A stretch of DNA of 64,000 nt from Dyella sp. BiH032 (GTDB lineage Bacteria > Pseudomonadota > Gammaproteobacteria > Xanthomonadales > Rhodanobacteraceae), in the NCBI RefSeq assembly GCF_031954525.1, contig NZ_CP134867.1, positions 1,426,001 to 1,490,000 on the forward strand, in the 5' to 3' direction. The position numbers and the translations under genes were made by a program. Below, piece by piece: positions 22,361 to 57,646 of the stretch (the first letter of the stretch is position 1; the number at the start of each line of letters is the position of its first letter). The notes under the pieces were generated by a model. The model saw nothing but the letters and a program-made list of their open reading frames with translations, did not search any database and had not been told where the DNA came from.

Positions 22361-22770
22361 GCAAGCACCCGCCCCTCATCCCGCCTTCTCCCCGGAGGGG
22401 AGAAGGAGAAGTGAATACCGAGGCAAGCACAGCTAGCGCGAGCTTTTGCTCTTTGCTTTTGCTCTCCCGGGTTCCCTTCGCGGCGGTGAGGGCTGGACGA
22501 TCAGGCCGTCAAAGGCGGGCGGGGACAGGACGTCCCCGCCTTTTCGATTCGGGCAGGGATGCCCGATCGAAAAGCCCGGCCAGCCCTCAACGCACCCGGA
22601 GCAGCGAAGGCTGCGGAGGGCGCCGCGCAGAGGGCCCTTTCTTCTTGGTTACTTCTTCTCGAGGTCCCCCTTGAGGGGATTGGGCAAGCAAAGAAGAAGT
22701 AACTCGCTCTCCGGCAGGAGAGCGAAACCCTCGCCCCGCACGGGGCGAGACATGGCTGGCCATGAGCCGA
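22361..22770. repeat. Mosaic hairpin repeat, copy A
   Basis: Intergenic element after glpK and before the converging EAL/HDOD gene, in the opposite orientation to copies B, C and E. A run of hairpins is visible: cttctcccc/ggggagaag near 22385, ggcggggac/gtccccgcc near 22515-22540, TTTCGAT/ATCGAAA around the gggcaggg core, and the signature stem GTTACTTCTTCT (22648-22659)/AGAAGAAGTAAC (22692-22703) with inner stem CCCCTTGAGGGG. Then follow cgctctcc/ggagagcg and ctcgcccc/ggggcgag. Short reading frames inside are not genes. Confidence 0.85.
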
Positions 22771-22844
22771 CATGAAGAGGACGAGGCGACCTTTAGCACC
22801 CGTTGGGGTTCGCAAGCACACCCCAACCTACGACACGCCCGCGC

Positions 22845-24113
22845 TCAATGCGGCTTCTGCTCCGCAAACGAATGCACATGATCCGCCCACCGGATCGCCT
22901 CCAGATAAGCCGCCGCCATCCGCCGGATATGCTGCGGCGACGCCTCGCCCCCGCGCAGCTCGCCCGCCTCCCAGCGCTGCACCTGCTCGAGCAGCGCGGC
23001 GAACGGACCCTGCTGGTCCAGCAGCGCCGCGCGGATATCCGGTGCAAGCGGCAAATGCTGAAGCAGCAATTCCATCGGCGCGCACATCAGGCTTTCCAGC
23101 AAGGAGAACAGGCCGGTGGTGAACGCCATCTCCCGCTGCTCGCGCGACATGTGCTGGGCCAGCTGCTCGCACATGTGCGCGCGGATCAGCGCTGCGCGCA
23201 GCAGCTCCGGCGGACGGTCGTCCATGCCGCTGAGCGCCATCGTGCTGATCCAGTTGCGCATGCGCGTGAGGCCGAAGAAGATCGCCGCCTGCTCCACCGA
23301 CTTCAGCTGCCGCGGCAGCGCGAAATAAGCCGAGTTCACGCAGCCCAGCAGCTTGTAGCTGAGGATCACATCGTTGCGGATGATCTGGCCGAGCTCCACC
23401 GGGCCGTTGCCTTCCTCCTCCAGCGCGCGCAGCAGGCGCAGCACGCTGAGGCGGTTGGCGGTCAGCACCGGCATGTCCACCTTCTCCGGCCGCAGCAGAT
23501 AGGGACCCTGGATGCCGGCGAACGGCAGGCCCATGCAGCGGTTGCAGGTGTCGTGATCGTTCACGTGGCCGGCGACCACGTGCAGGCCGCGCGCATGCAG
23601 CGCCTCGCAGCGCTCGCGCAACGCGGCTTCGTCCAGGCGGCTGGCGTCCAGGCGCACGTAGCGCGCCAGGTCCAGCAGCAGGCGCAGATCTTCGTCGGCC
23701 GGCGCGTCGCTCGAAACGCCTTCCAGATCCAGCAGCAGCGCGCAGCCGCGCGCCGACAGCTGGCGCAGGCGCTCGAGCAGCAGCACGTCGTGGATTGCCG
23801 CCGGCGACACTACCAGGCCGATGCGCGGATGGCGCAGCACCTGGTCGGCCTGCTCCAGGACCAGCTCGCGGGGCAGGCGCAGGAACACGCGGTTGCCGCG
23901 CGCCCATTGCGTGACCGAGCCGTCGATGATGGTCGAGAGCAGGCGATGACCGTGCGCGTGCTCGTCTTCGCCGTCCTCCTGCAGCAACAGCTCGTACGCC
24001 ATCAGCTGGCGGTCGCGGTCGAGCATGGGAATACGCACGACCGGCAGCGGGGAGCTGGCGGCGGTGCCGGCGAGGGCAGCGGCTTGGGCGGCTTCTACAG
24101 CGGTATCGGTCAT
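22845..24113 (-). CDS. EAL/HDOD domain signalling protein
   Basis: 422 aa starting MTDTAVEAAQ. An N-terminal degenerate EAL domain (about 25-225: MLDRDRQLMAYELLLQ, LLLDLEGVS, VAGHVND, GIQGPYLLRPEK) is followed by an HDOD domain (about 225-415: LGQIIRNDVILSYKLLGCVN, FFGLTRMRNWISTMAL, FTTGLFSLLESLM). The EAL signature itself reads YELLLQ, and metal ligands are mostly replaced, so it likely does not cleave cyclic-di-GMP and acts by binding. It lies 91 bases downstream of flgN on the same strand and may share the flgM sigma-28 promoter, linking it to late flagellar expression. Confidence 0.82.
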   Translation of the reverse strand: MTDTAVEAAQAAALAGTAASSPLPVVRIPMLDRDRQLMAYELLLQEDGEDEHAHGHRLLSTIIDGSVTQWARGNRVFLRLPRELVLEQADQVLRHPRIGLVVSPAAIHDVLLLERLRQLSARGCALLLDLEGVSSDAPADEDLRLLLDLARYVRLDASRLDEAALRERCEALHARGLHVVAGHVNDHDTCNRCMGLPFAGIQGPYLLRPEKVDMPVLTANRLSVLRLLRALEEEGNGPVELGQIIRNDVILSYKLLGCVNSAYFALPRQLKSVEQAAIFFGLTRMRNWISTMALSGMDDRPPELLRAALIRAHMCEQLAQHMSREQREMAFTTGLFSLLESLMCAPMELLLQHLPLAPDIRAALLDQQGPFAALLEQVQRWEAGELRGGEASPQHIRRMAAAYLEAIRWADHVHSFAEQKPH

Positions 24114-24204
24114 GGACACGTCGGCCAGCGATGGACCCGCACGGCGCGGATCCGGTGAATTCGCCCGCCGCGCGCGGCGGGTCCTCAGTTCGACACGATC
24201 AGGC

Positions 24205-24648
24205 TCACGCTTCCGCCAGGGACAGCGAGCGGTGATCGATGCGCAGCGTTCCGCCCGGGCCGTACACGCCCGCATCGGTGCCGCCGGTCAGCACCGCGAG
24301 GGCCTGCCGTACCTGGCGCAGGCGCTGCCCGACGATCTGTCCGTTGGATTGGTTGGCGCGCTGGCATTCGGCCAGCGCCGCCACGACGCCTTCCCAGGCC
24401 GCGCGCTGCGCGGGCGTGGTAGCGGCGAGTTCTCGCGACAGCTGCTGGCGTTCCGCGTCCAGCTGTTCCAGGCGCTCCAGGTGGGTCTGCTTGGCTCCGC
24501 CGGCGAGATGCAGGGCGTCGGGGTCGGCTCGTTCGAGCGCGCCGCGTTCGGCGGCGAGCGCGTCGGCCAGCCGCGACACCTCCTCGCGCATGTCGCCGAT
24601 CACGGCGTCCAGCGCGTCGGCCATCTCGTGGCGGAGGTCCTTGCTCAT
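24205..24648 (-). CDS. flgN: Flagellar export chaperone FlgN
   Basis: 147-aa, almost entirely helical cytoplasmic chaperone for the hook-filament junction proteins FlgK and FlgL. The N-terminal coiled region (MSKDLRHEMADALDAVIGDM, SRLADALAAERGALERADPDALH) and ANQSNGQIVGQRLRQVRQAL match FlgN proteins; the C-terminus has the late GPGGTLRI tail. Its ATG overlaps the flgM stop (ATGA). Confidence 0.88.
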   Translation of the reverse strand: MSKDLRHEMADALDAVIGDMREEVSRLADALAAERGALERADPDALHLAGGAKQTHLERLEQLDAERQQLSRELAATTPAQRAAWEGVVAALAECQRANQSNGQIVGQRLRQVRQALAVLTGGTDAGVYGPGGTLRIDHRSLSLAEA

Positions 24649-24956
24649 GGCTTGCCGCTGATCTGGCCTTCCAGGGAGAGCAGGCGGTCGGCGATCTTGC
24701 CGGCGTCGACGCGGTAGCTGCCATCGGCCAGCGCCTGGCGGATCTGCTCCACGCGCTTGGTGTCGATGGCCGGAGCCTGGTCGCCCTGCGCGGCGGCGGC
24801 CAGGGCGCGTGCCGAATCGGTGAGCTTCACGCTGTCGTCCGCTTTGGCCGCCGGGGCGGTCTCGGTCGCCGGCTGGTTCTGCTGGGCCGGGGCGCTCTGG
24901 TTGCCCTTGGCCTGGGGAAGCACCGGCAAGCCGTTGGAGGTGATCGTCGTGTTCAT
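24645..24956 (-). CDS. flgM: Anti-sigma-28 factor FlgM
   Basis: 103 aa. Binds FliA until the hook is complete, then is exported. The N-terminal half is low-complexity and Gln/Ala/Pro-rich; the C-terminal FliA-binding region shows DSVKLTDSARALAAA and the conserved IDTKRVEQIRQALADGSYRVDAGKIADRLLSLE. It is read from a consensus sigma-28 promoter at 24993-25019, giving the usual negative feedback loop. First gene of flgM-flgN. Confidence 0.95.
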   Translation of the reverse strand: MNTTITSNGLPVLPQAKGNQSAPAQQNQPATETAPAAKADDSVKLTDSARALAAAAQGDQAPAIDTKRVEQIRQALADGSYRVDAGKIADRLLSLEGQISGKP

Positions 24957-24992
24957 GGCGTGTCCTAGGGGTTTGTCGACCCTTCAGGCCGT

Positions 24993-25019
24993 TTATCGGC
25001 GGCGGGCGGGTGAACTTTA
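24993..25019 (-). promoter_or_regulatory. Consensus sigma-28 (FliA) promoter of flgM
   Basis: On the minus strand: TAAAGTTC (25019-25012), an 11-base spacer, GCCGATAA (25000-24993), identical to the enterobacterial sigma-28 consensus. The flgM ATG is 37 bases further on. It lies in the short gap between flgA and flgM. Confidence 0.95.
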
Positions 25020-25035
25020 GCGGCGTCGGTGCGGG

Positions 25036-25728
25036 TCATGGCAGGGCTTCCACCACGCCGGGGTCCAGCACCACGGCATCGACGGCGCGGCCGGAACTGT
25101 CATTGCGCACGCGCAGGCGGGCGCCGGTATCGCCGCCCCCGAGCGCGACGCCGGAGGCGCGCACCTCGATGCCGTCCAGGCGGGCGATCAGCTGCACGCG
25201 GTCGCCCGCACGCACGGTCTGGCGCCCGCCGAACGCGGCCGGCGCCAGCACCGCGCCCGCGCCGAGCGGGCGCGACAGCAGGCGTCCGGCGACCTGGTCC
25301 AGGCCGTCGACATAGCCGTAGCCCAGCCGCGTCACGTCGCGCTCCTCGCCGCGCACGTCGGCGGCGGTCACGCCGTCGCCGCGCTGCAGGGGCTTGTTCG
25401 CCACCAGCACGGTACGGAATAGCTGGAGCCGCACCGGCACCTGCATCCGCCAGCCGGTGGCCGGACAGCGCACTTCCACGCTCATGCGCGGCGCGGCGCG
25501 TGCGCCATCGGGCAGGGCCGCCTGCCAGGCCTGCGGACAGGCCGGTGGCTGGGTCCGTCCGCCCGCGGGATCCGCCGCGGCGACCACCCGGTTGCCCGGC
25601 TGGCTGAAATGCTGGAGCAGCCATTGTTCGGCGACGCGCCGCGGCCCGTCCGCCGGCTCGGCAGGCGCTGCCGCCGCCGCGAGCAGCGGCAGCAGCATCA
25701 GCAGCCATGGTGGCCGGCGTCGGCTCAC
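25036..25728 (-). CDS. flgA: Flagellar P-ring assembly chaperone FlgA
   Basis: Periplasmic chaperone for FlgI. 230 aa with signal peptide [21 protein letters not shown]. The C-terminal SAF-type domain has [51 protein letters not shown] and a final beta region. It overlaps the upstream chemoreceptor gene (ATGA), so mcp-flgA form one leftward unit divergent from flgB. Confidence 0.93.
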
Positions 25729-27035
25729 GCGTCGGCCTGGGCCAGCAGCTGGCCGAGCTGCTGGTGGATGGATTCGCGCTCGCGCTCGACCCGGTCGGGC
25801 AGCTGCGCGGCCTGGTCGGTCTGCCCCTCGCCGAGCAGCCGCACGAAGCTGTCGGCGTGCTCGGACAGGCGCTGCCCCGCTTCGAGCAGCGCGCCGGTGG
25901 CCGGATGCCCCGCGTGCTGCTCGCCCAGCCGGGCGAGGGCGTGGTTGAGCGCGGCGGTGTCGAACCAGCGGCGGTCCAGCGCGGCGGGTTCATGCAGGGC
26001 CAGCTCCATGGCCTGGCGCAGGCCCTGGATGGACTCGCGCAGGCTCAGGCTGAGACTGGCGACGGACGGGGTATCGGCATGATCCAGCCAGGCCAGGCAC
26101 AGCCGATGAGAGAGCACTGCGGCGCGGTCCAGCGATTCGGATTGGCGGATCGCCTCGCTGCTGCGGCGTTGCAGCGCGCCCAGTGTGGCTTGCGCGGCGG
26201 CGATGCGCGCGTTCTGCGCGTCGCAACCCTGTTGTACGGCGCGCACGCGCGCGGCGATAGCCTGCAGCGATTCGCCCTCGATGCCCAGGGTCCGCGTGGT
26301 GAGATCGATGCGGTCCTGGGCCCGCTCCAGGCGCTGCACGCCCTGGCGCACGTCGCCGTCCAACTGCTGCGAGAACTCGCCGATGGTGGCGGTCACCGCC
26401 TCGATCTCGTCGGTGGCCTGCGTGGTCTTCTCGGCCAGCTGCTTCACTTCGTCGGCCACGATGGCGAAACCGCGGCCGGCCTCGCCGGCGCGGGCTGCCT
26501 CGATGGCGGCATTGAGCGCGACCAGGTTGGTCTGGTGCGCGATCTCCTGCACGGTCGAGGTGAGCTTGCGGATCTGCGCGACTTGTTCGGCGAGCTTGCT
26601 CTGGTTGCGGTTCATGGCCGACAGCGCGCTGCGCAGCAGGCGCAGCTGGCCGTCCAGCTCGGTCACAGTATCGGCGCCGTGGCGGTTGTGGGCGCAGGCC
26701 TGCGTCACGTCGCCGGCGGCCTGCTGCAGCGCCGTCGAGATCCCGGCACCTTGCTCCGTCAAGCGGCCGACGCTGTCGCGCGCCTCGCCCGTGGCCTTGT
26801 GCAGGGCGTCCTGAGCACGCAGCAGGGTCTGGGCGCTGCCCATCACCAGGCTTTGCTGTTCCACTGCCTGCAACGCGACGGCGGCCGGCTCGCGCGGCGC
26901 GAGGCGCGCCAGCAGCGGTGCGAGGGCCTGCGCCAGGCGCGGGTGGCGGCGCGAGATTTGCTCGACCTGACGAGCGTCGCCGTCGGCGGCGGCCTGCGCG
27001 AGTGCGGCGAGGGGTTTGCTCGGGATCAGGGGCAT
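25725..27035 (-). CDS. Soluble methyl-accepting chemotaxis-type protein
   Basis: 436 aa, no membrane segment and no signal peptide. The signalling hairpin tip is intact (about 163-205: [40 protein letters not shown]), flanked by short coiled-coil arms. The about 60-residue N-terminus and the helical C-terminus ([36 protein letters not shown]) match no sensor I recognise; His-rich helices there weakly recall a zinc-binding CZB domain. It is coupled to flgA by ATGA overlap and occupies the position where Xanthomonas-type loci usually carry cheV. Probably a cytoplasmic chemoreceptor; possibly read from a sigma-28-like promoter. Confidence 0.88.
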
Positions 27036-27072
27036 GGGTGGGGTGGTCCTTGGGTTTACGGGTGTTGCGTTG

Positions 27073-27100
27073 TCATCGGTCGGGATGGCGCGGAACTTGA
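27073..27100 (-). promoter_or_regulatory. Possible sigma-28-like promoter of mcp-flgA
   Basis: On the minus strand TCAAGTTC (27100-27093), a 12-base spacer and ACCGATGA (27080-27073). The -35 matches the pseudomonad form seen before fliC in this window; the -10 has six of eight matches and the spacer is one base long. Confidence 0.4.
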
Positions 27101-27168
27101 GGAAGCAAGGGGTGTGCCACCTGGGAGTGGCGGTGTCGTCGGGGCTCGCGCCCTACGGTCGCCTTGTG

Positions 27169-27568
27169 GCCAGCCTTGTCTCGCCCCTCGCGGGGCGAGG
27201 GTTTCGCTCTCCTGCCGGAGAGCGAGTTACTTCTTCTTGCTTGCCCATCCCCTCAAGGGGGACCACGAGAAGAAGTAACCAAGAAGAAGGGCCCCCTGCG
27301 CGGCGCCCTCCGCAGCCTTCGCTGCTGCGGGTGCGTTGAGGGCTGGCCGGGCTTTTCGATCGGGCATCCCTGCCCTGATCGAAAAGGCGGGGACATCCCT
27401 GTCCCCGCCCGCCTGCGGCGGCCTGATCGTCCAGCCCTCACCGCCGCGAAGGGAACCCGGCAGATCAAAAGCGAAGAGCAAAAGCTCGCACTAGCTGTGC
27501 CTGCCGCGGTACCGCACTTCTCCTTCTCCCCTCCGGGGAGAAGGCGGGATGAGGGGCGGGTGCTCGCC
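27169..27568. repeat. Mosaic hairpin repeat, copy B
   Basis: Full-length copy between mcp and flgB. In order: tcgcccc/ggggcga, tcgctctc/gagagcga, signature stem GTTACTTCTTCT (27226-27237)/AGAAGAAGTAAC (27268-27279) around CCCCTCAAGGGG, a gctgcgg-type stem, TTTTCGATC/GATCGAAAA, ggcggggaca/tgtccccgcc, the common gccctcaccgccgcgaaggg segment, then cttctcccc/ggggagaag. Nearly identical over long stretches to copies E and A (inverted). Confidence 0.88.
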
Positions 27569-27709
27569 CATACATCTCTAATGCTGCTCGCGGCCTTAAG
27601 AACCGCGCGACGCCAGCCATAAAAACCGCGTCAGAATTCCGACTCCCCTTCCGGAAGCGCTCCGCGCCGCGCACCGCAAACCCAAGCCCCACAACGCTTC
27701 GCCCCACCC

Positions 27710-27725
27710 TGGCACGCGTTTTGCC
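27710..27725 (+). promoter_or_regulatory. Sigma-54 promoter of the flgB operon
   Basis: TGGCACG-cgtt-TTGCC, matching the -24/-12 consensus (TGGCACG-N4-TTGCW) except the last base, with the required GG-to-GC spacing. Transcription would start near 27736, about 30 bases before the flgB ATG at 27767. This excludes the earlier ATG at 27728. FleQ is the expected activator. Confidence 0.9.
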
Positions 27726-27766
27726 ACATGACCCCCGCGGACTTCCCGCGTGGAGTTTCGAGGGTC

Positions 27767-28165
27767 ATGAGCCAGATCAACGACAAGCTGTTCGGCATGC
27801 ATGCGCAGGCGCTGGGTCTGTGGCAGCGGCGTGCGGAGGTGATCGCCGGAAATCTGGCGAACGCGGATACGCCGGACTACCTCGCGCGCGACGTGGATTT
27901 CCGCAAGGCGCTGGCCGAGGCCGGTGGGGACGGGAAGTTGCCGATGGCGGCGACGGCGGCGGGGCATATCGATCCTGCCGTGCAGGCGAACGACACGCTC
28001 GCCTATCGCGTGCCGCTGCAACCCACGATGGATGGCAACACGGTCGACACGCAGGTCGAGCAGGCGAACTTCGCCGCCAACAGCGTGCACTACCAGGCCA
28101 GCCTTTCCTTCATCACCGCGCAGATCCGCATGCTGCGCACCGCCATCACCGGAGGCCAGGGCTGA
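27767..28165 (+). CDS. flgB: Flagellar proximal rod protein FlgB
   Basis: 132 aa. Start MSQINDKLFGMHAQALGLWQ is chosen because the sigma-54 promoter starts transcription downstream of the alternative ATG. The rod/hook N-terminal motif is RRAEVIAGNLANADTPDYLARDVDF; the C-terminal amphipathic helix is SVHYQASLSFITAQIRMLRTAI. First gene of flgBCDEFGHIJKL. Its stop overlaps the flgC start by one base (TGATG). Confidence 0.95.
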   Translation: MSQINDKLFGMHAQALGLWQRRAEVIAGNLANADTPDYLARDVDFRKALAEAGGDGKLPMAATAAGHIDPAVQANDTLAYRVPLQPTMDGNTVDTQVEQANFAANSVHYQASLSFITAQIRMLRTAITGGQG

Positions 28166-28584
28166 TGTCGCTCTTCAAGATTTTCGACGTCGCCGGCTCC
28201 GGCATGGCCGCGCAGTCACTGCGGCTCAACACCGTGGCCAGCAACCTCGCCAACGCCGATAGCGTGGCCAGTTCGCCGGACGCCGCCTACCGCGCCAAGG
28301 AACCGCTCTTCGCCACCGTGCAGCGCAACCTCGCGGCCAAGGGCGAGGAAGGCACGCAAGGCGTGCAGGTGCTCGGCGTCACCGAGAGCCAGGCCGCCAT
28401 CGAGAGCCGCTACGAGCCGGGCAATCCGCTCGCCGACGGCGACGGCTACGTCTACGCCAGCAACGTCAATCCGGTGGACGAGCTGGTCAACATGATTTCC
28501 GCCTCGCGTTCGTACCAGAACAACGTCGAGGTAATGAACAGCACACGCCAGCTCATGCAGAAGACGCTGGACCTCGGCAAGTAA
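28165..28584 (+). CDS. flgC: Flagellar proximal rod protein FlgC
   Basis: 139 aa, MSLFKIFDVAGSGMAAQSLR, with the rod motif LNTVASNLANADSVASSPDAAYRAKEP and the C-terminal VNPVDELVNMISASRSYQNN, VEVMNSTRQLMQKTLDLGK. It has a GGAGG box inside the end of flgB. Typical length for the family. Confidence 0.96.
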   Translation: MSLFKIFDVAGSGMAAQSLRLNTVASNLANADSVASSPDAAYRAKEPLFATVQRNLAAKGEEGTQGVQVLGVTESQAAIESRYEPGNPLADGDGYVYASNVNPVDELVNMISASRSYQNNVEVMNSTRQLMQKTLDLGK

Positions 28585-28599
28585 ACCATCGAGCGGAAC

Positions 28600-29250
28600 A
28601 TGGCCGACATCGCGATCAACAACACGAATTCCGCCGCCTCGCAGGCGGTGCAGGGCAGCAAGAGCAGCACGCTGAGCCAGGCGGATTTCCTCAGCCTGCT
28701 CACGCAGCAGATGCGCAACCAGGACCCGACCCAGCCGATGGACTCGTCGCAGATGGTCAGCCAGCTGGCGCAGATCGCGCAGGTATCGGCGACGCAATCG
28801 CTGCAGACCTCGTTCGACAGCCTCAGCACCGCGCTGCAGGGCAACCAGCTGCTGCAGGCCAGCGACCTGGTGGGGCGCGACGTCACCGTGCCGTCCAATG
28901 CGGTCAAGCTCGAAGGCACCGCCGGCATCGATGGCGCGATCAATGTCACCACCGGCGGGCAGACCGCGGCGGTGCAGATCGTCGATAGCGCCGGCAACGT
29001 GGTGCGCACGATCAGCCTGGGTACGCCGGACGCGGGGCTCGCCGACTTCCATTGGGACGGCAAGGACGAGCACGGCCAGGCGTTGCCGGAAGGCGCCTAC
29101 GGCATCAAGGCGCAAGTAGGCACGACCGCCGTGCAGACCTACGTCACCGGCAAGGTGGCCAGCGTGGGCATGGCCGGCGAGCAGGGCGCGTATCTGCAGG
29201 TCAACGGTTTCGGCGGCGTCCTGCTTGCGCAGGTCGCGCGCATCGACTGA
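28600..29250 (+). CDS. flgD: Flagellar hook cap FlgD
   Basis: Scaffold for hook polymerisation. 216 aa. N-terminal LSQADFLSLLTQQMRNQDPTQPMD is the FlgD signature, then the DLVGRDVTVPSNAV beta region and a FlgD Ig-like/tudor part (VVRTISLGTPDAGLADFHWD, LPEGAYGIKAQV). Fifteen bases after flgC. Confidence 0.96.
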   Translation: MADIAINNTNSAASQAVQGSKSSTLSQADFLSLLTQQMRNQDPTQPMDSSQMVSQLAQIAQVSATQSLQTSFDSLSTALQGNQLLQASDLVGRDVTVPSNAVKLEGTAGIDGAINVTTGGQTAAVQIVDSAGNVVRTISLGTPDAGLADFHWDGKDEHGQALPEGAYGIKAQVGTTAVQTYVTGKVASVGMAGEQGAYLQVNGFGGVLLAQVARID

Positions 29251-30522: not shown

Positions 30523-30537
30523 CGCGCATAACGCGTC

Positions 30538-32919: not shown

Positions 32920-32940
32920 TGGTTGCGGGTTCGCTCTCGC

Positions 32941-33354
32941 GTGTCTCGCCCCTGGGGGGCGAGGGTTTCGCTCTCCTGCCGGAGAGCGAGTTACTTCTCT
33001 TTGCTTGCCCAAACAGAAGTAACCAAGAGAAAGGGCATCCTGCCCTGATCGAAAAGGCGGGGACATCCCTGTCCCCGCCCGCCTTCGGCGGCCTGATCGT
33101 CCAGCCCTCACCGCCGCGAAGGGAACCCGGGAAGAGCAAAAGCTCGCACGTTGAGCGTTGCGGTTGTTCTTTCTCGCCGCAGTACTTCACTTCTCCTTCT
33201 CCCCTCCGGGGAGAAGGCGGGATGAGGGGTGGGTGCTCGCGAAGGCGCTTGTTCGCGCGCGCTGTTCACGGGCGGCCTCTTGGCAAGCCTTCAATCTCTC
33301 GCTCCGCCCGGCCCCTCACCCCGACCCTCTCCCCGGAGGGGAGAGGGAGTGCTC
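32941..33354. repeat. Mosaic hairpin repeat, copy C, inside the flg operon
   Basis: Lies between flgH and flgI, normally adjacent genes. Shorter internal form: the signature stem is only GTTACTTCT (32990-32998)/AGAAGTAAC (33015-33023) and the CCCCTCAAGGGG inner stem is lost. Then follow TCGAAAA, ggcggggaca/tgtccccgcc, the gccctcaccgccgcgaaggg segment and cttctcccc/ggggagaag (33190-33212). A tail shared with copy E (33290-33354) ends in cctctcccc/ggggagagg. Confidence 0.85.
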
Positions 33355-44821: not shown

Positions 44822-45646
44822 GTCGGACGCCTGCCGGCGCCCGAGTTACTTTCTCTTTGCTGGCCCAACCCCCTCAAGGGGGGGCTCGAGAGAAAGTAAC
44901 CAAAGAGAAATGGCCTGAAGTCAAAGGCTCGCGGCGGGGGTTGGCAGAGCACGGTGTGTTTATTTACTTTGCTGGACCGCGCGACTCGAAGGGGTACTGA
45001 GGTACGTGGAGGGGACGTCGAGGCGCCGTGGCGGAGAGGACGGGGAGCGTAGCGTCGGCTCTTGGTGTTCTAGCGATAGCAGCGCACTTCTCCCTCTCCC
45101 CTCCGGGGAGAGGGCGGGGTGAGGGGACCTACGGAGCGGGGATTTTGTTCGTTCTTCATGCCTACTGTCCGCTGCTCAGAGAACCCAGCTTCTGCCACGC
45201 CTTCGCACTTCCTCTCGCAGCAAGCCGCGCGTACATAGTTTTTGCTTCGACTTTTAAAGCCACTTCCGCTCTAGCCACGCTCCCGCGAGCACCCGCCCCT
45301 CATCCCGCCTTCTCCCCGGCGGGGAGAAGGAGAAGTGGGGTGCTATCGCGAGAAGCAAAAAGCACACGTACCGCTCCCCCTCCTCTCCGCTTCGGCGCCT
45401 CGAAGTCCCCTCCACGCCCCTCAGTCCCCCTTCGAGTCGCGCGGTCCAGCAAAGTAAGAAAACACACCGTGCTCTGCCAACCCCCGCCGCGAGCCTTTGA
45501 CCTTAGGCCATTTCTCTTTGGTTACTTTCTCTCGAGGCCCCCCTTGAGGGGGTTGGGCCAGCAAAGAGAAAGTAACTCGGGCGCCGGCAGGCGTCCGACA
45601 TGCCCGCTGCATAAGCGGCCAGATCACCGAACCACGACTTAGTGCC
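44777..45646. repeat. Mosaic hairpin repeat, copy D: long inverted repeat between fleQ and fliE
   Basis: Left arm about 44777-45125 and right arm about 45296-45646 are inverted, imperfect copies around a unique centre of about 170 bases. Each arm carries the signature stem in a second form: GTTACTTTCTCT (44845-44856)/AGAGAAAGTAAC (44889-44900) on the left and GTTACTTTCTCT (45521-45532)/AGAGAAAGTAAC (45565-45576) on the right, enclosing CCCCCTCAAGGGGG-type stems. The cctctcccc/ggggagagg unit (left) faces the cttctcccc/ggggagaag unit (right). No coding gene is supported in this 1.2-kb gap. Confidence 0.88.
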
Positions 45647-51343: not shown

Positions 51344-51354
51344 GGCTATCCATC

Positions 51355-52410
51355 ATGACCGCCAACGTATCCATGCCCATGTCCACGCCCAAGACTGCCG
51401 CTCCGTCCGCCGCCCGCGCCGCGCCCCGCCACGCCGCCGCGCAGCCGGGCAGCGCGGACGACAAAGCGCAGAGCGGCTTCGACCGCCAGCTCGACCAGCT
51501 GCTGCGCCAGCCGGGCGCTGCCGCGCTCGCGACCGGGGCCACGCCACCGGCACTGCCTGGCCACGTCACGGTGCCCGCCGCCGAGGCCGATGCCCTGTTG
51601 GCCGGCAAGGATGGCGATGGCGCGAGCGATCCCGCCGAACGCAACGGCAACGCCCTGGCCGCCGCCGTGCTGGCCCTGCTGGGGCAGGGCGCATCGATCG
51701 CCCATCCCGCGGCGGGCTCAGCTCACGGACAAACGCTTTCGCCCGATGCGGGCAAGGGCGGCGCGCAGCGCGGCCTGCCCGGTTTCCTTGTTGCCGACGG
51801 CGCGAAGGATGCCCTTGCATCCGCCGCGCCCATGGCCGCCGGCGGTGCGGATGCCGGTGCGCTGATCTCGACCGTCATCGAAGCCGCCGCACCCGCGGTG
51901 CACAAGACCTCTGAGCCCGGCAGCAACATCGAGGCGCTCGCCGCCACGATGACGCCGCAGGCGCCCGCCGCCAACGTCGCGCACGGCGTCCACACGCTGA
52001 AGATGGACGCGCCCGTCGGCAACTCCGCCTTCGCCCAGGAGCTGGGCCAGCAGGTCGCCTGGCTAGGCGGCCAGGAGATCAAGGAAGCACGCATCCGCCT
52101 GCGTCCGGAAGAACTCGGCCAGCTCGACGTAAAAGTGAGCGTGGCCGAGCACGGCCGCGTGGACGTCAGCTTCACCGCGCAGCATCCCGCCGCGGTAACC
52201 GCCGTGCAGCAGACCCTGGGCCAGCTGGATCTGATGCTTGCGGGCCACGGGCTGTCGCTCGGACAGGCGCAGGTGGGGCAGCAGGGGGCGGGGGAGCGTG
52301 GGCAGGGGCAGGGAGAAAAGGCGCGAGATGCCGTTGCTTCCAACGAGTCCGAGCCCATGAAATCCGCCCCCCTTCCCTTGGTCGTCGGGTTACTCGACAC
52401 CTTCGCCTAA
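51355..52410 (+). CDS. fliK: Flagellar hook-length control protein FliK
   Basis: 351 aa. Long Ala/Pro-rich, low-complexity N-terminal ruler (about 1-230), then the folded C-terminal switch domain: SAFAQELGQQVAWLGGQEIK, EARIRLRPEELGQLDVKVSV, VDVSFTAQHPAAVTAVQQTL, GQLDLMLAGHGLSLGQAQV. Ends the fliE-K unit. A 7-bp hairpin (52470-52486) lies 60 bases downstream without a T run. Confidence 0.94.
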   Translation: MTANVSMPMSTPKTAAPSAARAAPRHAAAQPGSADDKAQSGFDRQLDQLLRQPGAAALATGATPPALPGHVTVPAAEADALLAGKDGDGASDPAERNGNALAAAVLALLGQGASIAHPAAGSAHGQTLSPDAGKGGAQRGLPGFLVADGAKDALASAAPMAAGGADAGALISTVIEAAAPAVHKTSEPGSNIEALAATMTPQAPAANVAHGVHTLKMDAPVGNSAFAQELGQQVAWLGGQEIKEARIRLRPEELGQLDVKVSVAEHGRVDVSFTAQHPAAVTAVQQTLGQLDLMLAGHGLSLGQAQVGQQGAGERGQGQGEKARDAVASNESEPMKSAPLPLVVGLLDTFA

Positions 52411-52569
52411 TCCGGCGTAGATAGGCGATCGAATCCTCTCTGCAGATTTCGTAGCGATCCGATGGTCGCGGCGGCGGAGCGCCGCCTATGGTCAAGCGGC
52501 CAGGTGCAACGCCTGGTCCGCGGTATTCGCCTTGCGCGAATGCTCGATCCATTCAAGGGAGAGTAGTTA

Positions 52570-53241
52570 ATGGGAATAAGGAGTAGTGCACGCTGGTGTT
52601 CGGCCGTCGCCCTCTTTTCTTTCATGGCTCCAGTCGCTGCCATGGAGCCATTGGCGTCTATATGCACCAGCCAATGGAGCAGCCCGCCACCGGTTGCGGA
52701 AACCGGGTACGGGAGTGGAGTGGATCAGATCGTGAACGAACCCGTCAGGTTGCATGGGTTGCTGAAGGACCTGAAAGCCCCGGACGCAGATGGAAGGTTT
52801 TGGCAATTCAAGTACGACAAGTGGGCAAGGGCCGATCGGGATAAGAAAATTATCTATATCGAGCCCGAGAAAGCAGATACGTCATCTTCGTCGCAGCTTT
52901 CGCATGAGGTGGGTCATGCGGTTCTTGCTTGGAAGCCGGATTGGTCATCGCGAGACGCCTACATCAGATCTGCTTGCCGTGACGAAGGGGCCGCCTTGGC
53001 CGAGAACATCCGCACCAGGGAAGTCGTCAAGGAGTGCTTGGGTATAGATATCCATCTCACTTCGGCCGAAGAGGACGCCATGATGGAGAAGTACTACGAG
53101 TTGCTGTCGCATCCACCGTTGAATCTCGCGGAGCTCGGATATTTCTTTTGTGAGCGCAATACCGTGTCAGGGGGCGAGAAGAGTTACCTCGACTACTACG
53201 GGGAGCACTACGACAGCGTTATCGGGGAGGTATCACCATGA
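52570..53241 (+). CDS. Exported HEXXH-motif protein, unknown family
   Basis: 223 aa with signal peptide (SARWCSAVALFSFMAPVAAM). The mature protein contains QLSHEVGHAVLAWKPDW, a zincin-type HEXXH at about residues 112-116, and 22-26 residues later CRDEGAALAENIRTR, which could give the third zinc-ligand Glu of a gluzincin. Cys residues (31, and in the second half) suggest disulfides. It has a good ribosome-binding site (aagggagag) and is visibly lower in GC than its neighbours. It interrupts fliK-fliL and overlaps the next gene. Not a known flagellar part; a secreted protease or toxin-like enzyme is an inference. Confidence 0.65.
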   Translation: MGIRSSARWCSAVALFSFMAPVAAMEPLASICTSQWSSPPPVAETGYGSGVDQIVNEPVRLHGLLKDLKAPDADGRFWQFKYDKWARADRDKKIIYIEPEKADTSSSSQLSHEVGHAVLAWKPDWSSRDAYIRSACRDEGAALAENIRTREVVKECLGIDIHLTSAEEDAMMEKYYELLSHPPLNLAELGYFFCERNTVSGGEKSYLDYYGEHYDSVIGEVSP

Positions 53242-53762
53242 GGAATGTATTGCGCGTGTGTCTGCCAGCGCTCTTGTTCATCCTTCATCCTAACTTGTCA
53301 CAGGCCGAGATTTCGGGATCTCAGTGGAACGAGGAGATATGGCAGAAGATCAGGCTGATTGAAATGAAAGCCGCACAGGGGCGGGAATCCCTGTCCGAGG
53401 TTTGGCCCGTACCAGCACACCTTCAAAAGATTCAGCGATCCGGACAGTTGTCCTCCGTAGAAGGAGGGATGGTTGCAGTGACGTCAGACGTCATCATTAC
53501 CAGCTCCGAAATCCGTCTGAACAAAGACATCCCGGTCCTTGCATTTTTTGAGATCGATGGTCGATGCATCACAGTGAAGGAACTCAAGCGGCACTATCCC
53601 GACGTATCGATAACTGACGTCCCCCACTCGATGTCGCCCGAAGATAAAACGTACTGGTCCACCGAAGGCGGTCACGGAAAAATCGCATTTGGTTTTGCCC
53701 AGAAGCGGCCAGCCTGTCTCTCGGCTGTCGTATTTACGCCGAGGACCACCCGGGGCCCCTAA
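53238..53762 (+). CDS. Exported partner of the HEXXH protein, unknown family
   Basis: 174 aa; the ATG overlaps the previous stop (ATGA). Signal peptide MRNVLRVCLPALLFILHPNLSQA, then a mixed alpha/beta chain (WNEEIWQKIRLIEMKAAQGR, VTSDVIITSSEIRLNKDIPV, RCITVKELKRHYPDVSITDV, HGKIAFGFAQKRPACLSAVV) with two Cys that could pair. No recognised family. Lower GC than its neighbours, like the gene before it. Coupling and shared export suggest it acts on or with the HEXXH protein, for example as inhibitor or immunity protein; this is inference. Confidence 0.6.
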   Translation: MRNVLRVCLPALLFILHPNLSQAEISGSQWNEEIWQKIRLIEMKAAQGRESLSEVWPVPAHLQKIQRSGQLSSVEGGMVAVTSDVIITSSEIRLNKDIPVLAFFEIDGRCITVKELKRHYPDVSITDVPHSMSPEDKTYWSTEGGHGKIAFGFAQKRPACLSAVVFTPRTTRGP

Positions 53763-53784
53763 GGGTTTGCGTGGAAATCCGCTA

Positions 53785-53807
53785 CCGGGCGGCCCGCGGC
53801 CGCCCGG
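53785..53807 (+). terminator. Hairpin after the HEXXH gene pair
   Basis: Perfect 10-bp stem ccgggcggcc/ggccgcccgg with a 3-base loop, followed by tttcctcc. Likely a terminator separating the pair from fliL. Confidence 0.65.
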
Positions 53808-54006
53808 TTTCCTCCGCCCCATCCACTGTCATGACGGCGACGCGACGCCTCTCCGCCACGCGTCAAGAAAACGCCGCGCCCGCCTCCGGGCAGCCCGCAA
53901 CCCGCGCCGCTGAGCTGTTTCTCACGATGGCATGCCGATTGCATTCAGACCTTGGCCTCGCGCGGGAAAGCGCGGGGCACGAATCCGTTGCATATCGAGG
54001 TCATGC

Positions 54007-54516
54007 ATGTCGAACGCTGAGCAAAGTCCGGTCGAGCAGCCCGCCAAGAAAGGCGGGGCCGGGCGCGGCACCATCCTGGTCCTGGTCTTCGCGCTGCTGG
54101 TGGTGTCGGCGGTGTGCGGCTACGCGCTGTTCACCCTGCGCGGCCACGCGGCCGACGGCGGGAGTCGGACGGCCGAGGCCAAGCCCGAGAAGAAGGGGCC
54201 GGAAGTCTTCCTCGCGATGGATCCGGCTTTCGTGGTGAATTTCCAGAAGGCCGAGGGCCTCAGCTATCTGCAGGTCGGCGTCACGCTGATGTCGCACGAC
54301 CCGGCCGCCATCCAGGCCGCCAAGGACGCCGATCCGGTGATCCGCAACGCGCTGGTGATGCTGTTCTCCAGCCAGGACTACACCGAGCTCGCGGATATCC
54401 AGGGCAAGCAAAAGCTGCAGGCCAAGGCGCTGGCGGCGGTGCAGAAGATCCTCCAGGAGCGTACCGGCCACGCAGGGGTCGAGGCGCTGTACTTCACCAG
54501 CTTCGTGATGCAGTGA
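54007..54516 (+). CDS. fliL: Flagellar basal body-associated protein FliL
   Basis: 169 aa, one N-terminal membrane segment (GTILVLVFALLVVSAVCGYA), linker, then the periplasmic stomatin-like domain FLAMDPAFVVNFQKAEGLSY, LQVGVTLMSHDPAAIQAAKD, DPVIRNALVMLFSSQDYTEL. The C-terminal YFTSFVMQ is typical. First gene of fliLMNOPQR; the 240-base gap upstream holds no clear sigma-54 site. Confidence 0.95.
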   Translation: MSNAEQSPVEQPAKKGGAGRGTILVLVFALLVVSAVCGYALFTLRGHAADGGSRTAEAKPEKKGPEVFLAMDPAFVVNFQKAEGLSYLQVGVTLMSHDPAAIQAAKDADPVIRNALVMLFSSQDYTELADIQGKQKLQAKALAAVQKILQERTGHAGVEALYFTSFVMQ

Positions 54517-54523
54517 GGCGGCC

Positions 54524-55540
54524 GTGAGCGACTTGCTCTCCCAGGAAGAAATCGACGCGCTGCTCAATGGCGTCAATGGCGGCGACGTGCCCACCGGTGG
54601 CGACGAACCGCCGCCGGCCGACGCGGTGCTGTCCTATGACTTCACCCAGCAGGACCGCATCGTCCGCGGCCGTCTGCCGACGCTGGAAATGGTCAACGAC
54701 CGTTTCGCGCGCTATTTCCGCGCCGGCATCTTCAGCGTGCTGCGCAAGACCTGCGAGGTCTCGGTGCTGGGCGTGAAGATGTCCAAGTTCAACGAATACG
54801 TGCACGGCCTGGCGGTGCCCAGCAACCTTAATCTGGTGCGCGTGAAGCCGCTGCGCGGCACCGCGCTGATCGTGATGGAACCGCGCCTGGTCTTCAGCGT
54901 GATCGACAACTTCTTCGGCGGCGACGGCCGCTATCACGCGCGCATCGAGGGCCGCGACTTCACGCCCACCGAGTCGCGCGTGATCCAGATCATGCTGGCG
55001 GAAGTCTTCACCGCGATGGTCGAAGCCTGGGCGCCGGTGCTGCCGCTGAACTTCGAGTTCCTCAACTCGGAGATCAATCCGCAGTTCGCCAACATCGTCA
55101 GCCCCACCGAGACGGTGGTGGTATCGCGCTTCCACGTGGAGGTGGACGGCGGTGGCGGCGAAATCCACCTCACCTTGCCGTACTCGATGGTCGAGCCGAT
55201 CCGCGTGCTGCTCGATGCGGGCGTGCAGAGCGACCGCGTCGAGCGCGACGAACGCTGGCTGCAGAGCCTGCACCAGGAGGTGCTGGACGCCGAAGTCGAA
55301 CTCAGCTCGCTGATGCTCGAAGTGGACATGAACATCGGCGACTTCCTGCAGCTGCGGCCCGGCGACGTGATTCCGGTGAACCTGCCGGAGCTGTGCACGA
55401 TGTTCGCCGAGGACGTGCCCATTTTCCGCGGCCAGGTCGGCCGCGCCGGCGGCCACAAGGCCGTGCGCTTCCAGTCCCCCGCCGGCCGCCGCGAAAGCCG
55501 GCACATCAATGAATTCTCCACCGGGAATACCCAAGCATGA
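54524..55540 (+). CDS. fliM: Flagellar motor switch protein FliM
   Basis: 338 aa from GTG 54524. N-terminal CheY-P-binding peptide LLSQEEIDALLNGV, then YDFTQQDRIVRGRLPTLEMV, FARYFRAGIFSVLRKTCEVS, the GGDGRYHARIEGRDFTPTE middle domain and the FliN-like C-terminus DFLQLRPGDVIPVNLPEL. Stop overlaps fliN (ATGA). Confidence 0.97.
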   Translation: MSDLLSQEEIDALLNGVNGGDVPTGGDEPPPADAVLSYDFTQQDRIVRGRLPTLEMVNDRFARYFRAGIFSVLRKTCEVSVLGVKMSKFNEYVHGLAVPSNLNLVRVKPLRGTALIVMEPRLVFSVIDNFFGGDGRYHARIEGRDFTPTESRVIQIMLAEVFTAMVEAWAPVLPLNFEFLNSEINPQFANIVSPTETVVVSRFHVEVDGGGGEIHLTLPYSMVEPIRVLLDAGVQSDRVERDERWLQSLHQEVLDAEVELSSLMLEVDMNIGDFLQLRPGDVIPVNLPELCTMFAEDVPIFRGQVGRAGGHKAVRFQSPAGRRESRHINEFSTGNTQA

Positions 55541-55890
55541 GCACCACCACCAACGATTCGGCCACCTTGCTCGATCCCACCGGCCGCCCCGAATACGAAA
55601 CCATGCTCGGCGTGGCGGGCGAAAGCGGGGACGTCAACCTCGACCTGATCCTGGACGTGCCGGTCACGCTGGCGATGGAAGTCGGCCGCACGCGCATCAG
55701 CATCCGCAACCTGCTGCAGCTCAACCAGGGCTCGGTGGTGGAGCTGGACCGCGCCGCGGGCGAGCCGCTCGACGTCTTCGTCAACGGCACCCTGGTCGCC
55801 CATGGCGAAGTGGTGGTGATCAACGAGAAGTTCGGCATCCGCCTGACCGACGTGATCAGCCCCGCCGAGCGCGTGCGGAAGCTGCGCTGA
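55537..55890 (+). CDS. fliN: Flagellar motor switch protein FliN
   Basis: 117 aa. SpoA domain: LILDVPVTLAMEVGRTRISI, RNLLQLNQGSVVELDRAAGE, PLDVFVNGTLVAHGEVVVIN, EKFGIRLTDVISPAERVRKL. Very conserved C-ring component. Overlaps fliM; one base before fliO. Confidence 0.97.
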   Translation: MSTTTNDSATLLDPTGRPEYETMLGVAGESGDVNLDLILDVPVTLAMEVGRTRISIRNLLQLNQGSVVELDRAAGEPLDVFVNGTLVAHGEVVVINEKFGIRLTDVISPAERVRKLR

Positions 55891-55891
55891 C

Positions 55892-56266
55892 ATGAGCCTG
55901 CTGCTCGCCTTCGCCGCCACCCCGGCGGCCGATCCCGGCGTGGGCGCGGAATTGCTGCGCGTCTGCCTGAGCCTGATCGGCATCGTCGCGCTGATCTTCG
56001 CCGCGGGCTGGCTGGGCCGCCGCGCGCAGGGCCGCGCGCAATCGGGCGGGCGGCGCATCCGCTGCGTCGAGTCGTTCGCCGTGGGCACGCGCGAACGCGT
56101 GCTGCTGCTGGAGGCCGACGGCAAGCGGCTGCTGGTCGGCGTGGGGCAGGGCGGCCTGCGCACGCTGCACGTGTACGAGGGCGAAGCCCCCGCCGTCGAT
56201 ACGCCGTCATTGCCGACGCCACCCGCTTTCGCGGATCTGCTCGGCCTCTGGAAACGCAAGTCATGA
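55892..56266 (+). CDS. fliO: Flagellar export-gate assembly protein FliO
   Basis: 124 aa with a single membrane segment ([20 protein letters not shown]) and a cytoplasmic beta part ([40 protein letters not shown]) typical of FliO. It helps FliP assembly. Stop overlaps fliP by ATGA. Confidence 0.92.
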
Positions 56267-57012
56267 AGAAGTGCTTCCTCCTCGCGCTGCTCGCTCTGCT
56301 GGCGCTGGCGCCGTCGCCGCTGCTGGCCGATCCCGTCGCGGGCATTCCGGCACTGACCGTGCAGAACGCCGGGGGCGGCCAGAGCTGGACGCTGTCGCTG
56401 CAACTGCTGGGCCTGATGACGGTTCTCACGCTGCTGCCGGCGGTCCTGCTGATGATGAGCTCGTTCACGCGAGTGATCATCGTGCTGGGTTTCCTGCGCC
56501 AGGCGCTGGGCACGCAATCCACGCCGCCGAACCAGGTACTGCTGGGGCTGGCGCTGTTCATCACGCTGTTCGTGATGTCGCCGGTGCTGGAGCGGGCCTA
56601 CGCCGATGGCGTGAAGCCCTATATGGACGGCCAGCTGTCGGCGGAGCTGGCCATTCCCGCGGCGGCGGCGCCGTTCAAGCGCTTCATGCTGGACCAGACG
56701 CGCGATCCGGACCTGCAGCTCTTCACCCGCCTGGCGAAGGAGCAGCCCTATGCGAGCAAGGACGACGTGCCGTTTCGCGTGGCGATGCCGGCGTTCGTGA
56801 CGAGCGAGCTGAAGACGGCGTTCCAGATGGGCTTCCTGCTGTTCATTCCGTTCCTGATCATCGATCTGGTGGTGGCGAGTGTGTTGATGTCGATGGGCAT
56901 GATGATGGTGTCGCCGATGATCATCTCGTTGCCGTTCAAGATCATGTTGTTTGTGTTGGTGGATGGGTGGTCGTTGTTGCTGGGGACATTGGCGGGGAGT
57001 TTTTACTCGTGA
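56263..57012 (+). CDS. fliP: Flagellar export gate protein FliP
   Basis: 249 aa. Cleavable signal peptide ([19 protein letters not shown]), then FliP blocks: [80 protein letters not shown]. The last about 60 bases use g/t-rich codons, as at the ends of flgH and fleQ, again just before a mosaic repeat. Confidence 0.97.
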
Positions 57013-57141
57013 GCGCCTCTACACGTCATGCCGGCGCAGGCCGGACGGAGCGCGTCGCGCAGAGAACGCTCGGAGGGCGGCCCCGAAGGGGCGAGCGTAG
57101 CGAGTCATCCAGTGGCGACATCGCTCGGTTGTCGCCTCACG

Positions 57142-57646
57142 GCCAGCCTTGTCTCGCCCCTCGCGGGGCGAGGGTTTCGCTCTCCTGCCGGAGAGCGAGT
57201 TACTTCTTCTTGCTTGCCCAAGAAGAAGTAACCAAGAAGAAGGGCCCCCTGCGCGGCGCCCTCCGCAGCCTACGCTGCTGCGGGTGCGTTGAGGGCTGGC
57301 CGGGCTTTTCGATCGGGCATCCCTGCCCGAATCGAAAAGGCGGGGACGTCCTGTCCCCGCCCGCCTGCGGCGGCCTGATCGTCCAGCCCTCACCGCCGCG
57401 AAGGGAACCCGGCAGATCAAGAGCAACTCGGAGCGTCGCTTCGCTCGCTCTTGTTTGGTCGTTGCTGCTTACCGCGGTACCGCACTTCCCCTTCTCCCCT
57501 TCGGGGAGAAGGCGGGATGAGGGGCGGATGCTCGAGAAGGTGCTGGTTCGTGCGAGCCGTTTGCGCATGGGGTTTGCTCGAGTTTTCGAGCTTTCGCTCC
57601 GGCCGGCCCCTTACCCCAACCCTCTCCCCGAAGGGGAGAGGGAGAT
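57142..57646. repeat. Mosaic hairpin repeat, copy E, between fliP and fliQ
   Basis: Separates two normally adjacent export-gate genes. Signature stem GTTACTTCTTCT (57199-57210)/AGAAGAAGTAAC (57221-57232) with a 10-base loop; the inner CCCCTCAAGGGG stem is missing, as in copy C. Then come the gctgcgg stem, TTTTCGAT/ATCGAAAA, ggcggggac/gtccccgcc, the gccctcaccgccgcgaaggg segment, cttctcccc/ggggagaag (57491-57511) and a C-like tail ending cctctcccc/ggggagagg. A REP-like fragment lies upstream (57024-57060). Confidence 0.88.

Follow-up and report, generated by a model that had tools for sequence, protein, structure and literature searches.

Five loci, A to E, in the window analysed here, a 64,000-nucleotide stretch of Dyella sp. 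BiH032 (contig NZ_CP134867.1, positions 1,426,001 to 1,490,000), carry copies of a hairpin-rich repeat. We read this family, with a probability of about one half, as a dispersed non-autonomous modular repeat whose main form would give a TwoAYGGAY-like RNA with putative RsmA/CsrA sites and a triplex pseudoknot at its 3′ side. Comparison of the copies reveals their pairings, a third-strand rule, their loops, their copy number and their polarity relative to the replication fork; transcription, a fold in RNA over DNA, binding of CsrA/RsmA and the route of spread are what we infer. The preservation of the fold through sequence change, together with the co-fork orientation of the copies, suggests a working structure rather than debris.

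The repeat unit and its conserved pairing

A preliminary description of the window had reported these loci from the letters alone. All five lie where it placed them, and the family goes far beyond chance. A pattern for the signature hairpin with the variable stem letters left free matched 110 copies genome-wide, 59 forward and 51 reverse, compared to 0 and 0 in the reversed control. With copy B as query, at least 40 places including B itself were recovered, the rest being 85-93% identical over about 400 bp, and five fragments were found in addition (40 of 220 first-look candidates were scored). Within the window, the signature is GTTACTTCTTCT/AGAAGAAGTAAC in A (22648-22703), B (27226-27279) and E (57199-57232), and a pattern for this form matched exactly these six arms and none in shuffled sequence; the signature is GTTACTTTCTCT/AGAGAAAGTAAC in both arms of D (44845-44900 and 45521-45576), and a 9-bp form in C (32990-33023). 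The inner CCCCTCAAGGGG hairpin is either present or missing as a whole among the genomic copies, as had been described.

A unit is about 0.3-0.41 kb long. One of its ends is formed by a pyrimidine/purine hairpin, and the other usually carries a triplex motif rich in G/C, of the BoxC/PIT/TM type. It starts with short hairpins, followed by the signature motif, which reads on the + strand of the element as a pyrimidine (Y) arm, a loop, a purine (R) arm and a purine tract. In 64 of 89 units of the A type and 14 of 16 of the D type, the G/C-rich motif lies on the same strand 209-321 bp downstream of the signature. Between the two end motifs stands one of two alternative bodies, either the A body, which is branched and has two A(N)GGA hairpins, or a different D body. 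The five loci had been regarded as copies of one mosaic. This holds for A, B and E, which are full units, whereas C is a truncated A-type unit whose branched body is missing its left half, and D consists of two units of the second type, tail to tail, which have only the end motifs in common with the A type. Eight other loci in the genome also carry tail-to-tail pairs, D with D or D with A, and such pairs always face each other at a spacing of 662-737 bp. The features in the window are as follows.

22361..22771, minus strand: copy A, a full A-type unit, inverted; 93% identical to B over query positions 59-468.
22488..22588, plus strand (the A(N)GGA-loop strand, A being inverted): TwoAYGGAY-like body of copy A, loops AGGAC and AGGGAT.
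27158..27567, plus strand: copy B, a full A-type unit, from sequence and similarity search.
27226..27292, plus strand: putative triplex/pseudoknot end of copy B (the mirror rule and the loop pairing were examined across the family); Y arm 27226-27237, loop GCCC 27243-27246, R arm 27268-27279, mirrored purine tract 27280-27290, and GGGC 27289-27292, which can pair with the loop.
27249..27260, strand not specified: optional inner CCCCTCAAGGGG hairpin of copy B inside the pseudoknot loop.
27338..27439, minus strand: TwoAYGGAY-like body of copy B; outer stem 27338-27346/27431-27439, hairpins 27352-27386 and 27387-27408, both loops AGGGAT (minus); RsmW match at 27347-27444 minus.
27522..27556, plus strand: G/C-rich triplex motif of copy B (BoxC/PIT/TM type), with Y arm, R arm and third tract GGGATGAGGGG; the third strand covaries.
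32922..33239, plus strand: copy C, a truncated A-type unit directly before flgI; pseudoknot 32990-33036, half body, TM motif 33199-33229.
44845..45126, plus strand: left unit of copy D, D type; pseudoknot 44845-44900, other body, TM motif 45096-45126.
45296..45576, minus strand: right unit of copy D, tail to tail with the left; TM motif 45296-45326, pseudoknot 45521-45576.
57131..57534, plus strand: copy E, a full A-type unit that follows fliP and lacks the inner hairpin; pseudoknot 57199-57232 plus purine tract, body 57291-57391, TM motif 57494-57524.

The preliminary description expected a functional fold from the conserved pairing. This expectation is strongly supported, the excess of compensatory change being large, which is the opposite of what it had named as counting against it. 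In an alignment of 33 sequences, read on the strand opposite to +, 94.0% of the cells in 51 pairs (the pseudoknot included) are paired, compared to 77.3 after shuffling, and 36 of the 51 pairs show two-sided changes. The covariation score is 0.491, against 0.177 (standard deviation, sd, 0.009) in shuffled and at most 0.122 in slid alignments. These sequences represent 19 genomes by count, namely the window genome, its relatives, and Xanthomonadales records that are named or metagenome-assembled; they were reduced from 46 by dropping nine own copies, one more copy of the relative G003, and the loci L267, L309 and L318. It should be mentioned that relatedness inflates the shuffle tests and is preserved by the slid control, and that the structure was anchored on one aligned sequence (L157), which favours the unslid version somewhat. 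For a set of 46 sequences, compiled after 7 D-type copies and the 4 copies from L259, L262 and L286 had been removed (together 11 of the 45 non-own copies), RNAalifold yields -63.5 kcal/mol on the minus and -58.2 kcal/mol on the plus strand, whereas 20 column shuffles of the minus alignment give a mean of -0.6. At least two Watson-Crick types occur in 29 of the 42 pairs common to both strand folds.

That the copies are decayed genes, an alternative named at the outset, is not supported. Intergenic positions between called genes account for 103 of the 105 copies, of the 110, that lie within the analysed stretches (gene calls by our own codon model). The two commonest stem forms differ by one base per arm, 34 vs 36 letters in all, and therefore a reading frame would not be kept. 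Convergent gene pairs flank 48 of the 103 intergenic copies, compared to 15 of 76 gaps >30 bp in sampled stretches.

A mirrored third strand and a pseudoknotted loop

After the R arm come CC and then a purine tract that mirrors the R arm, as in the stem CAGAGAAAAAG with the tract AAAAAGAGAG, or the stem CAAGAGAAAG with the tract AAAGAGAAG. Over the first five positions after CCAA in 113 distinct cases, the mirror rule holds at 535 of 565 positions, compared to 343.9 (sd 10.7) when tracts are shuffled among stems and 387 when the tract is read directly. The scans that supplied most of these cases left the tested positions unconstrained. In 47 asymmetric stems, the mirror fits better in 39 and a direct copy in 2, with 6 ties. 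An attenuator-like switch, in which the 5′ arm would form Watson-Crick pairs with the third tract, was rejected on this count, the tract being a mirror and not a second copy of the purine arm.

The sequence just past the tract pairs with the hairpin loop, in the combinations TGCCC/GGGCA, TGGCC/GGCCA, TGCTC/GAGCA, TCGCC/GGCGA, CTTGAT/ATCAAG and others. The mean run of this loop-to-downstream pairing is 4.11 in 139 cases, against 2.81 (sd 0.07) after shuffling, with runs of 2 or fewer in 17 of the 139. Both tests dropped stems <4 bp; the mirror test dropped stems <6 letters as well, and the loop test loops >10 or <2 letters and tracts with <3 mirror matches. In the 33-sequence alignment, 93.9% of the cells of the pseudoknot helix are paired and 4 of its 5 pairs show two-sided changes. 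The features that distinguish an H-type pseudoknot with base triples were thus both found: the loop pairs outside its hairpin with compensatory changes, and the third strand obeys the mirror rule. Base triples require such a rule, whether they are of the R.R.Y kind, on the + strand, or of the Y.R.Y kind, on the minus strand. Reading an H-type pseudoknot on the minus strand places the pyrimidine tract in the hairpin's major groove, an arrangement known from telomerase RNA. Read on the + strand, it would have the purine tract in the minor groove, and a mirror rule would not be expected there.

The G/C-rich motif at the other end provides a second case of third-strand matching. The genome has 131 such motifs. 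Among the 100 listed, the variable triad is A/A in 63, G/G in 37 and mixed in 0; judged by its letters, this is a clean natural base-triple covariation, in which the third strand matches the stem as triples. Some of the 100 contain GGGAGAGGG, three bases (CTG, CCG or TTG) and GGGTGAGGG; the pattern ignored the 5′ C run. The motif was compared with the TM_ECO/BoxC/PIT consensus CCCTCNCCCN3-6GGGNGAGGGN3GGGNGAGGG (Holder et al. 2015, PMC4666352, with Hoyne and Maher cited there). Both share the Y-R-R order and nearly the same letters, and TM_ECO is likewise intergenic and sometimes found in inverted pairs. The commonest unit-borne form differs from TM_ECO in having AGAAGG with GGGAT and a shorter spacer. 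The third strand of TM has T at an A-T pair, which is permitted in R motifs, and the E. coli TM_ECO folds as a DNA triplex in vitro (PMC4666352). The A/G-type end motif with a pseudoknotted loop is absent from the part of that account available to us, although the ITxF database of the same authors may well list such triplexes unnamed. Two further motifs of the TM type were seen in the window, an inverted one downstream of C (33312-33343, a pattern match) and a similar one after E (57608-57645, recognized by eye and missed by the pattern).

The mirror rule also bears on a functionless origin of the paired changes, in which template switching in imperfect palindromes copies one arm from the other. 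This is a known mutational process, and wobble pairs are rare, as if the arms were corrected at once. However, it yields inverted complementary copies and leaves unexplained both the mirrored third strand and the constancy of the A(N)GGA loops on one strand amid changing stems; we regard it as unlikely.

Loops, folding strand and replication polarity

The A bodies carry on the minus strand hairpins with the loops AGGAC, ATGGAT, AGGGAT, AGGAT, AAGGAT and similar, covered by an A(N)GGA pattern slightly wider than AYGGAY. With no prefilter on the loop, exactly two such hairpins were found in 81 of 89 own A-type copies, one in 7 and three in 1. When own and related copies were taken together (124, which is 145 minus 21 without a TCC-type string in the expected stretch), exactly two occurred in 93, and at least one was found on the opposite strand in 1 copy and in the reversed sequence in 11. 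CsrA/RsmA has its sites at A(N)GGA loops, and RNAs of this kind are collected in the Rfam clan CL00106.

The Rfam model of TwoAYGGAY in this clan (threshold 43) scores 43.9 bits in the L157 element, a relative's copy, and falls short of the threshold in L178 (41.2) and L170 (36.9). Directly 5′ of a pseudoknot and on the same strand, it exceeds the threshold in L281 (54.4) and L289 (45.1); further matches in L261 (47.4) and L289 (46.2) have no adjoining pseudoknot visible to the pattern. The best match of copy B is to RsmW (RF02809, clan CL00106) with 30.5 bits, under the gathering score of 52. Overlapping matches of the same clan were suppressed, and the TwoAYGGAY score of copy B is hidden behind RsmW. 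We call the A body TwoAYGGAY-like and not a member of that family, because the window copies miss the gathering threshold. Around pseudoknots in other records, A(N)GGA hairpins (stem of at least 5 bp) were found on the expected side and strand in 13 of 19 from Xanthomonadales (1 on the other strand, up to 3 on the other side), in 9 of 50 named records from other groups (the other strand had them in 2 and the other side in none of the 50), and in 10 of 44 among the remaining untitled and viral records (2 on the other strand, up to 1 on the other side). In L246, an Rfam match to Bp1_684 (RF02421), a Burkholderia small RNA (sRNA) candidate, covers 6713-6820; its start falls within the purine arm of a pseudoknot copy, and its strand is the one with the A(N)GGA loops in the window family.

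Since the loops, the Rfam matches and the pseudoknot topology agree, the minus strand is the probable folding strand, and hence the fold is probably one of RNA. The element would then act as a structured RNA, most likely made from the strand opposite to its +. The 5′ part would be an outer stem around two hairpins, each with A(N)GGA in its apical loop; sites of this form are bound by CsrA/RsmA dimers. It would be followed by a hairpin whose loop pairs upstream to form the H-type pseudoknot, and the connecting pyrimidine tract would run along the major groove of that hairpin's stem to serve as third strand (U.A-U, C+.G-C). Read-through or own transcription would expose the two loops to RsmA/CsrA, and the triplex pseudoknot would protect the 3′ side of the fold. 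Together, the copies could constitute dispersed binding sites, as a sponge or as processed 3′ RNAs, which may have spread through intergenic regions by a route coupled to, or filtered by, the direction of the replication fork.

The orientation of the units is polar. The gene dnaA lies at 251.8 kb, and a dif-like site is found on the opposite side of the chromosome, at 2750.8 kb. Relative to these, the + strand runs with the fork in 63 of 83 single A units (P = 2.4e-6), 9 inverted pairs and 4 single D units being excluded from the 96 loci. By gene context, co-fork orientation is seen in 27 of 37 convergent and 11 of 13 divergent gaps, in 12 of 17 tandem gaps with co-fork genes and in 13 of 16 with anti-fork genes; 223 of 420 called genes in the analysed stretches are themselves co-fork. 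Towards the terminus the bias declines, to 8 of 14 units in the last fifth. The other genomes of the genus found were drafts (six genomes were returned), and the clustering of strands on the same contig was therefore used: 73 of 95 same-contig pairs share the strand, compared to 47.6 expected (P = 3e-4; 63 copies on 20 contigs, of 92 matches, gene direction uncontrolled). This comes mainly from G001 (P = 0.005) and G002 (0.016), the values for G003 and G004 being 0.20 and 0.19. Standalone TM motifs in the window genome have no polarity (18 co-fork, 16 anti), nor do the single TM_ECO motifs of E. coli (8 of 13, from the positions in Table 1 of PMC4666352, which in the part covered likewise gives them no strand bias); both counts argue against a general effect of triplexes on polarity. 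A chromosome signal like KOPS (GGGNAGGG) was considered and rejected: GGGCAGGG is present in some copies, in the opposite direction by eye, and is not conserved.

The main rival is suggested by this polarity. The element may fold instead as single-stranded DNA, the + strand forming intrastrand purine-motif (R.R.Y) triplexes at both ends while on the lagging-strand template, with spread or persistence through single-stranded DNA transposition, slippage or template switching and with the A(N)GGA loops secondary. The fork bias independent of gene direction and the same-strand clustering in relatives are consistent with such a fold, as are the unmixed triads of the TM motif, the T at its A-T pair and the DNA triplex formed by TM_ECO. 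In contrast, neither the standalone nor the E. coli motifs are polar, the A(N)GGA loops are conserved and strand-specific, and the + strand pseudoknot, with its tract in the minor groove, gives no reason for a mirror rule. We consider this account possible, though doubtful. It is noted that the RNA and the DNA-level reading can both hold for one element.

Several observations weigh against the structured RNA with CsrA/RsmA sites. A(N)GGA hairpins are missing from all 16 D-type bodies and, by the stem criterion used above, from 41 of 50 named pseudoknots outside Xanthomonadales and 6 of 19 within. No gathering-level Rfam match was found in the window from 20000 to 60000, all window copies being sub-threshold. 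The copies from L259, L262 and L286 combine the pseudoknot with a body unmatched to the alignment, hence their exclusion. Wobble counts (57 G.U on minus vs 22 G.T on plus, or 35 vs 22, P = 0.11, without one strongly skewed pair) lean to the minus strand but leave the folding strand undecided; wobbles are rare on both strands, with 22 in 1896 cells of the common pairs, and selection on DNA would fit as well. In tandem contexts, the unit agrees with gene direction in only 15 of 33 cases, where a sponge in read-through 3′ untranslated regions predicts otherwise.

Distribution, mobility and relation to known elements

The core of the unit was matched by BLAST at least 40 times in the window genome (G000), at least 40 times in G001, 27 times in G002, 22 in G003, 18 in G004 and 0 in G005. 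The strict pattern of the own type gave 110, 0, 6, 4, 19 and 0, respectively, and the copies of G001 thus carry other stem letters. Site A holds no unit in G003 and G004, and site C none in G003 (where the TM motif is retained), G004 and G005, with a unit of another type in G002. At site B, G003 and G004 have 3.7-3.9 kb instead of the unit; in G003 (L361, G003:C3:421900-426500), haemagglutinin-like and transporter-like genes are seen there by eye, with the look of two-partner secretion. Insertion ends and target duplications could not be fixed, the intergenic sequence between relatives being too diverged. Copies with a matching tract are present, among the matches listed, in Xanthomonadales, Burkholderiales, Pseudomonas, Desulfobacterales, Selenomonadales, Clostridia and some viral contigs, and shorter pseudoknot copies in Bacteroidota; this taxon list is a sample, and some matches are chance ones without a tract, such as those in a coding region of one phage group.

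The preliminary description also proposed a structure-dependent mobile element moved by a REP-associated transposase. The mobile element finds partial support in the sites and copy numbers, which differ between relatives, whereas the transposase was unmatched: no Y1_Tnp match was obtained in the window genome with its 110 copies, in G001 or in G003. A REP/BIME-like family moved by a RAYT (Y1, HUH) transposase would resemble the units in being intergenic, palindromic, high-copy, mosaic and arranged in inverted pairs, and some relatives do have Y1 genes (G002 above the cut-off, G004 and G007 weak, G005 broken). However, another repeat family, GTAGGTTGGGGTGAGC..GCGAACCCCAAC (GTAGGTTGGGG repeats), borders the RAYT-like genes of G004 and G007, and the patterns detected no unit in the 5.0-5.5 kb around the Y1 genes of G002, G004, G005 and G007, which makes this origin very improbable. 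These RAYT-like genes (L381 in G004, L382 in G007) encode 185-191 amino acids, and the repeats flanking them look like cognate REPs. The GTAGGTTGGGGTGAGC..GCGAACCCCAAC repeat often adjoins units in the window genome, though no Y1 gene was matched there. Further repeats, CGTAGGTTGGGGTGAGC..GCGAACCCCAAC and CGTCATTCCGGCG..GCCGGAATCCAGTGGCG, recur upstream of units at 22800-22837 and in many other flanks.

Movement by a reverse transcriptase was considered as well. A structured body with a repetitive A/G-rich tail would suit a retroelement-like repeat, polarity with the fork is known for some group II introns, and two units of G001 (L170, L178) have long tandem tails of the AAAAGCCAAGAGC or AAAGGC type. 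Nevertheless, RVT_1 was unmatched in G003, G004 and G007, all with many copies, and gave one weak match, in a 1259-amino-acid frame, in the window genome; we give this origin hardly any credence. When 857 open reading frames (ORFs) from 157 loci around pseudoknots elsewhere were clustered by BLAST, no shared mover or cargo appeared among the printed clusters (at most 25), which comprised the genes of one phage group (the pattern lying inside a coding gene), common enzymes and transporters, and translated repeats. The unit ends misfit the consensus of integron attC sites.

In the window, C directly precedes flgI, E follows fliP, and D has a FleQ-like gene before it and fliF downstream; the units thus interrupt a flagellar gene cluster. 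This cluster extends over 31400-58700 (FlgE/F/G type, FlgI, FleQ-like, FliF, FliP, Bac_export_1), with the units between co-directional genes. The preliminary description saw no transposase gene in the window; of ten flanking proteins that were scanned, nine match other families (kinase, HDOD, chemotaxis, sigma-54 activator or flagellar) and one matches none.

The components of the unit have known relatives: the TwoAYGGAY-like body, the BoxC/PIT/TM triplex and the REP-like mosaic habit. The TwoAYGGAY RNA (RF01731, clan CL00106; Weinberg et al. 2010, PMC2864571) likewise has an outer stem around two hairpins with AYGGAY-type loops. The units differ in that their loops follow A(N)GGA(Y), with AGGAC and AAGGAT among the variants, that a triplex pseudoknot lies beyond the Rfam match, and that they form a repeat of about 100 copies. 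The CsrA/RsmA-binding sRNAs RsmW, CsrB and RsmX/Y/Z share GGA in hairpin loops; unlike these products of one or few genes, the units are dispersed and multi-copy, with a sub-threshold RsmW score and putative binding. RsmU is an RsmA-sequestering 3′ untranslated RNA of the related Xanthomonas; unlike the units, it is single-locus, Xanthomonas-limited and reported to have no Rfam homologue (PMC7694677). REP/BIME-RAYT systems (Nunvar et al. 2010, PMC2817692) are also dispersed, intergenic mosaics of hairpins with inverted pairs, whereas the units are several times longer, have ends that by eye are not of the GTAG-headed kind, and had no cognate RAYT found. The H-type pseudoknots with major-groove triples in telomerase RNA and SAM-II have the same strand order and triple rule as the minus-strand reading; the units differ from them in a longer putative triple run and in being bacterial repeats. 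A literature search that covered few subscription papers returned no account of an A/G triplex whose loop is pseudoknotted, nor of a link between such a triplex and A(N)GGA hairpins, nor of similar repeats with fork polarity.

Base triples can rarely be proven from sequence alone. In this family, dozens of natural variants show covariation between a duplex and its third strand, which makes them an extensive collection in which triplex pseudoknots could be tested in cells. The 2010 listing of TwoAYGGAY gives them as probable RNAs without an assigned function in the part consulted (PMC2864571), and our literature search found no later one; the link to A(N)GGA loops, if true, would provide these RNAs with a testable role. 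Tentatively, we envisage a structural class not described before and spread over several phyla, a CsrA/RsmA-type hairpin pair followed by a telomerase-like triple-helix pseudoknot, which in one lineage may have become a fork-oriented selfish or regulatory repeat of about 100 copies, each at once a dispersed RsmA/CsrA site and a fork-polar DNA element. The same link would turn intergenic repeats usually dismissed as REP-like debris into candidate titrators of a global regulator, and a fork polarity independent of gene direction makes the spread of such repeats a directly testable question.

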